A stretch of 22,749 nucleotides of DNA. Origin: a virus. A program made the translations under genes and the position numbers. Under the pieces are notes generated by a model that saw nothing but the letters and a program-made list of their open reading frames with translations, was not told where the DNA came from and ran no database searches. Positions within the stretch are counted from its first letter, which is position 1. Each line of letters opens with the position of its first letter. Shown in pieces: positions 15,444 to 15,642 of this stretch. The DNA lies in the IMG/VR virus record IMGVR_UViG_3300020472_000185, positions 1 through 22,749 of that record; one strand, written 5' to 3'.

Positions 15444-15612
15444 TTTGTTGTTGTTGCTTTAAATTTTCTTCTTCAATATATTGTTCTAATAGAGCAACAT
15501 ATACATCCTTTTCCCACGGAATCATATTTTCTATCTCCGTTAATGAGTATTTATGGTGTTGCATCAAGGCAAAGTTAATTTTAAAGTATGACGCTAAATC
15601 AGTGTGCGCCAT
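15433..15612 (-). CDS. Small ORF after gp26: likely -1 frame extension of a tail assembly chaperone (gp51 position)
   Basis: This 59-residue ORF has an ATG at 15612, two bases after the gp26 stop codon. The product is MAHTDLASYFKINFALMQHH followed by YSLTEIENMIPWEKDVYVALL and a Glu/Gln-rich end. The pattern of an aromatic/His-rich helix, then hxxhxxMxxWExxxxxxLL, is seen in the second (T-type) part of tail assembly chaperones. No proper Shine-Dalgarno precedes the ATG; the only AGG (TAGGTATG) is too close. The frame is exactly the -1 frame of gp26 entered through a slippery heptamer, so it may be made mainly as a 300-residue fusion. Independent initiation by coupling remains possible. It occupies the place of a gp51-type hub assembly factor, but similarity to T4 gp51 is not evident. 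Confidence 0.75.
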   Translation of the reverse strand: MAHTDLASYFKINFALMQHHKYSLTEIENMIPWEKDVYVALLEQYIEEENLKQQQQSGI

Positions 15613-15642
15613 ACCTATGCGAAAAAACTTGACAATCCCTCC
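15586..15642 (-). promoter_or_regulatory. Predicted programmed -1 ribosomal frameshift element in gp26
   Basis: Read on the minus strand, three elements stand in the standard order. First is an internal Shine-Dalgarno-like GGAGGGA (15642-15636). After 8 bases comes the slippery heptamer T TTT TTC in phase X XXY YYZ (15627-15621). After a 6-base spacer containing the gp26 stop TAG comes a stem-loop. Its arms GTATGGCGC (15614-15606) and GCGTCATAC (15594-15586) form nine pairs with one G-U, around an 11-base loop. The SD spacing and stem distance resemble those of E. coli dnaX and phage G/GT sites. The stem covers the ATG of the small ORF, which would also hinder independent initiation. Confidence 0.75.

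Follow-up and report, generated by a model that had tools for sequence, protein, structure and literature searches.

The 22,749-nt record IMGVR_UViG_3300020472_000185 of IMG/VR (positions 1 to 22,749, hereafter the window), from a marine T4-like virus, carries on its minus strand a gp26-like gene (16334–15615) with the elements of a −1 ribosomal frameshift signal at its 3′ end. In the direction of translation, these are a Shine–Dalgarno (SD)-like GGAGGGA (15642–15636), which is a putative stimulator; 8 nt of intervening sequence (TTGTCAAG); the slippery heptamer T TTT TTC in X XXY YYZ phase (15627–15621); a 6-nt spacer, GCATAG, that includes the gp26 stop codon TAG (15617–15615); and a stem of 9 bp, one of them a G·U pair, with its 5′ arm GTATGGCGC at 15614–15606, its 3′ arm GCGTCATAC at 15594–15586 and a loop of 11 nt, all on the minus strand. 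The purine-rich site, heptamer and stop were read directly from the sequence, and every coordinate and count agreed with a preceding sequence-only reading of the window that had proposed this layout. The predicted minimum-free-energy fold lengthens the stem by two pairs, to 11 bp (−14.1 kcal mol−1, z-score −4.55), and none of 200 shuffled sequences was as stable. Across nine genes of the window, in-phase TTTTTTC occurs once in 4,688 codons, at the gp26 site.

Standard decoding of the gp26-like open reading frame (ORF) gives a 239-residue protein that matches the whole of the PF12322 domain (T4_baseplate; E = 1.2e-75, 254 bits against a curated cut-off of 24.5) and phrog_150 (E = 5.4e-82), with 761 phage records matching. 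A −1 slip would re-read C15621 and continue for 62 residues (15621–15433, minus strand) through a 59-codon ORF (15612–15433). Translation across the slip yielded the 300-residue fusion that the same reading had claimed from a stop-free −1 frame, with the junction SSFF-RIG. The 59-residue part matches phrog_634 (baseplate hub assembly catalyst; E = 1e-28) and also positions 239–278 at the C-terminal end of phrog_150, and the phrog_150 profile thus already covers joined proteins.

To follow the signal in relatives, we gathered 260 sequences, comprising the window, IMG/VR contigs retrieved with gp26 queries (80 + 80 + 2 + 80) and 17 named phages, and kept 205 distinct gp26 loci after dropping identical junction regions and short ends; gp26 queries from Cr30 and D491s returned almost no additional contigs. 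The heptamer was present in phase in 202 of the 205 loci, exactly 10 nt ahead of the gp26 stop in 201 of them (TTTTTTC in 199, TTTTTTT in 2). In the Ochrobactrum phage ORM_20 (around 2130–2145), TTTTTTC lies 13 nt before the stop, with one extra zero-frame codon between. The −1 frame, which codes for the conserved extension domain, contained no stop within 120 nt at any of the 205 loci. This conserved set extends to Aeromonas Ah1 (Straboviridae), Stenotrophomonas Moby, Acidovorax ACP17, Caulobacter Cr30 and Vibrio D491s, and the heptamer is kept in relatives down to about 25–30% protein identity.

The three loci without a canonical heptamer, those of Vibrio K369, Vibrio YC and Salmonella Maynard, are distant and of Ackermannviridae type. 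Their −1 frame past gp26 is still open, and in Vibrio YC the ORF past gp26 matches phrog_634 weakly and a TAATG stop–start overlap is present; these phages may use re-initiation or a non-standard slip. Relatives that lack the heptamer, or that make separate proteins, were thus found only at the edges, namely these three loci and the two-gene arrangement of T4 described below, and the clade of the window was untouched.

Codon usage at the junction points to selection that is acting on the nucleotides themselves, beyond the protein sequence. The loci are related, so the codon counts are not independent, and other codons of the same genes served as the control. The Phe-Phe pair at the site is written TTT-TTC in 199 of 201 loci, compared with 15 of 200 other Phe-Phe pairs in the same genes. 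The codon before it always ends in T (TCT, AAT, AGT, GCT or GAT), spanning four amino acids; elsewhere, 62% of Ser codons and 34% of Ala codons do so. At the SD position, Glu is encoded by GAG in 97 of 123 cases (79%) versus 28% elsewhere, and wherever GGAGG is present (60 loci), its end lies 10 nt ahead of the heptamer.

The downstream structure is likewise under selection, as judged from folding and covariation, with the outer pairs less well supported. In 45-nt segments, mean fold energy was −12.6 kcal mol−1 right after the stop; over the 240 nt upstream it ranged from about −3 to −7, and past the structure from −3 to −5. In the clade of the window (68 distinct relatives), the nine stem pairs form in 91.5% of cells, versus 20–48% when slid. 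Changes on both sides were seen in 34 cells, whereas shuffling gave a mean of 12.3 (34 being reached in 0 of 500 shuffles). Most of this covariation falls on one pair, 15607/15593, which occurs as CGC/GCG in 31 loci, CTC/GAG in 29 and CAC/GTG in 6. At most loci, the 5′ member of this pair falls on the synonymous third position of an Ala codon and follows a non-synonymous change on the other arm. The types of this pair need 16 changes on the gp26 tree, and both sides switched together in all four supported independent pairs. Phages resembling S-PM2 and ACG-2014j form other stems at this position (such as TGTTCTATAATA...TATTATAGAACA and CCCTCT...AGAGGG), so that a structure holds its place even as its sequence turns over. 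The alignment of gp26 3′ ends that had been suggested as a check on the signal found the heptamer, the upstream purine-rich site and the stem conserved, the last with compensatory changes. Together, the loci form a large natural series of −1 signals in which one heptamer is combined with several stems.

We conclude with high confidence that the junction between gp26 and the 59-residue ORF is a programmed −1 ribosomal frameshift. The most direct alternative is that the 59-residue ORF is a separate gene, translated by termination–reinitiation at the ATG 2 nt past the gp26 stop, so that no fusion is needed. An ATG stands at that place in the window and in many relatives, and records such as those of P-SSM2 and S-PM2 annotate an ORF of this type as a separate gp51. 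A separate gene, however, leaves unexplained the invariant in-phase heptamer, its fixed distance from the SD-like site and a −1 frame that is open back to the heptamer wherever the heptamer is present. Moreover, 49 of the 205 loci have no ATG, GTG or TTG among the first nine −1-frame codons and yet conserve the extension domain, which separate initiation fails to explain in general. The annotation of S-RSM4 begins inside the extension domain, leaving a shortened gene, the records of S-CAM8 and ACG-2014j show no gene at that place, and T4 has the same C-terminal domain fused covalently to a gp26-like part. We therefore consider an independent gene improbable. Transcriptional slippage on the T run, which would give mRNAs of mixed frame, is more improbable still. 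The homopolymer of six T residues is the kind of site it would use, but the run is exactly six, the preceding base never being T and the following base being C in 199 of 201 loci, and polymerase slippage usually requires longer runs. It also needs neither the phase of the heptamer nor a stem nor an SD-like site. That a T-rich Phe-Phe end lies beside an unrelated small ORF by chance might be entertained for an AT-rich genome; the single in-phase occurrence in nine genes of the window and, above all, the conservation of the heptamer in 202 of 205 distinct loci rule this out.

Several observations weigh against frameshifting at a structured signal or against the functional assignment that follows. 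The SD-like motif is lacking in 74 of 201 loci. Four supported independent pairs are too few for significance in a sign test (P = 0.125), and RNAalifold, run on a 72-row alignment of the clade, calls only the inner three pairs of the stem, the outermost pairs being less conserved. The ATG after the gp26 stop in the window makes some independent gp51 product possible. Finally, in an AlphaFold model of gp26 (predicted local distance difference test score of 85), the likeness to a solved chaperone fold is weak: the most probable Protein Data Bank match, the HK97 tail assembly chaperone 2ob9, had a probability of 0.72 and was not significant (E = 0.89). Searching solved structures by means of a gp26 profile found nothing.

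The genes on either side suggest what the two products do. The upstream gene (17070–16372, minus strand) encodes a 232-residue protein of the tail-tube family (phrog_45, E = 9.3e-40; PF23849, E = 8.6e-18). The next gene downstream (15443–13920, minus strand) encodes a 507-residue protein that is a likely tape measure protein on the grounds of its position and a hydrophobic block at residues about 202–284; the profile search gave no family match for it. In Caulobacter phage Cr30, the annotated tape measure protein sits two genes past the extension ORF. The gene order on the minus strand of the window is thus tube, tail assembly chaperone (TAC), likely tape measure, with a short protein and its extended form encoded ahead of the last, as in known TAC pairs. 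Because of this position, and because the short and long forms match a TAC-N/TAC-NC pair, gp26 is most likely the short chaperone (TAC-N) and the 59-residue ORF its C-terminal extension (TAC-C). In some cyanophages, the likely tape measure position is occupied by very large proteins, compared with 507 residues in the window, that are annotated as late control gene D, endolysin, oxygenase/peptidase-like or hypothetical.

Given the computed signal, its conservation, the selection on the RNA and two domains that are each homologous to T4-like proteins, we infer that slippage occurs in cells, at a rate that would leave the long form in the minority. In this model, the majority of ribosomes would stop at the gp26 TAG and release the 239-residue TAC-N. 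A minority, delayed by the stem–loop in front of them and by 16S rRNA base-pairing to GGAGGGA behind them, would slip one base back on T TTT TTC and would produce the 300-residue TAC-NC, the C-terminal domain of which is the ORF at the gp51 position. The dnaX gene of Escherichia coli has an SD sequence about 10 nt upstream of its heptamer and a downstream stem–loop; the window shares this design, whereas the gene, the heptamer and the purpose differ. By analogy with lambda gpG/gpGT, TAC-N may coat the tape measure protein and TAC-NC may recruit tail tube subunits. The conserved heptamer, the purine-rich site, the compensated stem and an extension conserved even where it has no start codon all favour the mechanism and the G/GT analogy put forward in the sequence-only reading.

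As in lambda and other tail-chaperone frameshifts (Xu, Hendrix and Duda 2004), a −1 slip near the end of a short chaperone gene would add a short C-terminal extension, and the order tube, chaperone, tape measure is the same; unlike in lambda gpG/gpGT, a strong SD precedes the heptamer of the window locus and a strong stem follows it. The gpE/gpE+E′ pair of the P2 FETUD operon (Christie et al. 2002) likewise involves a programmed frameshift among the tail genes of a phage with a contractile tail. At the TAC locus of Vandenendeviridae and Andersonviridae (phage Adele, PMC12846349), a −1 frameshift was also inferred from a conserved poly-T motif and an open −1 frame, the motif being GTTTTT rather than TTTTTTC.

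In T4, genes 26 and 51 are separate and lie on opposite strands. T4 gp26 covers the N-terminal part of phrog_150 (14–235) and T4 gp51 both the N- and C-terminal parts (13–280 of 282), so that gp51 is a full-length gp26-like part plus the C-terminal domain. By this coverage, T4 would use two genes for the short and the long form, and marine phages would obtain both from one. The abstract of a 2022 study by Vladimirov and colleagues is said to report conserved frameshifting in several groups of T4-like phages, with T4 relying on genes 26 and 51 for the two forms instead. Vladimirov, Gautam and Davidson (Virology 2022, 566:9–15) identified TAC genes in T4-like phages; in the relevant passages, PMC12846349 credits that work with −1 signals of poly-T type in the TAC-N genes of T4-like phages, and PMC10885494 with T4-like phages that instead use a short gene and a fused long gene. 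Contrary to the novelty that the sequence-only reading had implied, tail-chaperone frameshifting in T4-like phages was, on these accounts, reported in 2022; the principle is already published, and some detail of the stimulators may be undescribed. We give even chances to a history in which frameshifting is ancestral for TAC-NC across the T4-like supergroup (here Kyanoviridae, Cinqassovirus, Menderavirus, and Vibrio, Caulobacter and Ochrobactrum phages), with clade-specific stems behind an unchanged heptamer and T4 genes 26 and 51 arising from such an ancestor by duplication and fusion.

For annotation, what the records of many marine T4-like phages call gp51 or baseplate hub assembly catalyst is very probably, for the most part at least, the C-terminal portion of a frameshift product. 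Not one of the 17 named records with gp26 annotates a joined gene, and ACG-2014j, Ah1, ACP17, S-CAM8 and ORM_20 lack any annotated gene for the extension domain. Elsewhere in the window (8465–4422, minus strand), a 1,347-residue protein with many degenerate repeats, of GGVGIGENL type and VAGVSTFVGFSTF type, is probably a fibre or baseplate-attached structural protein.
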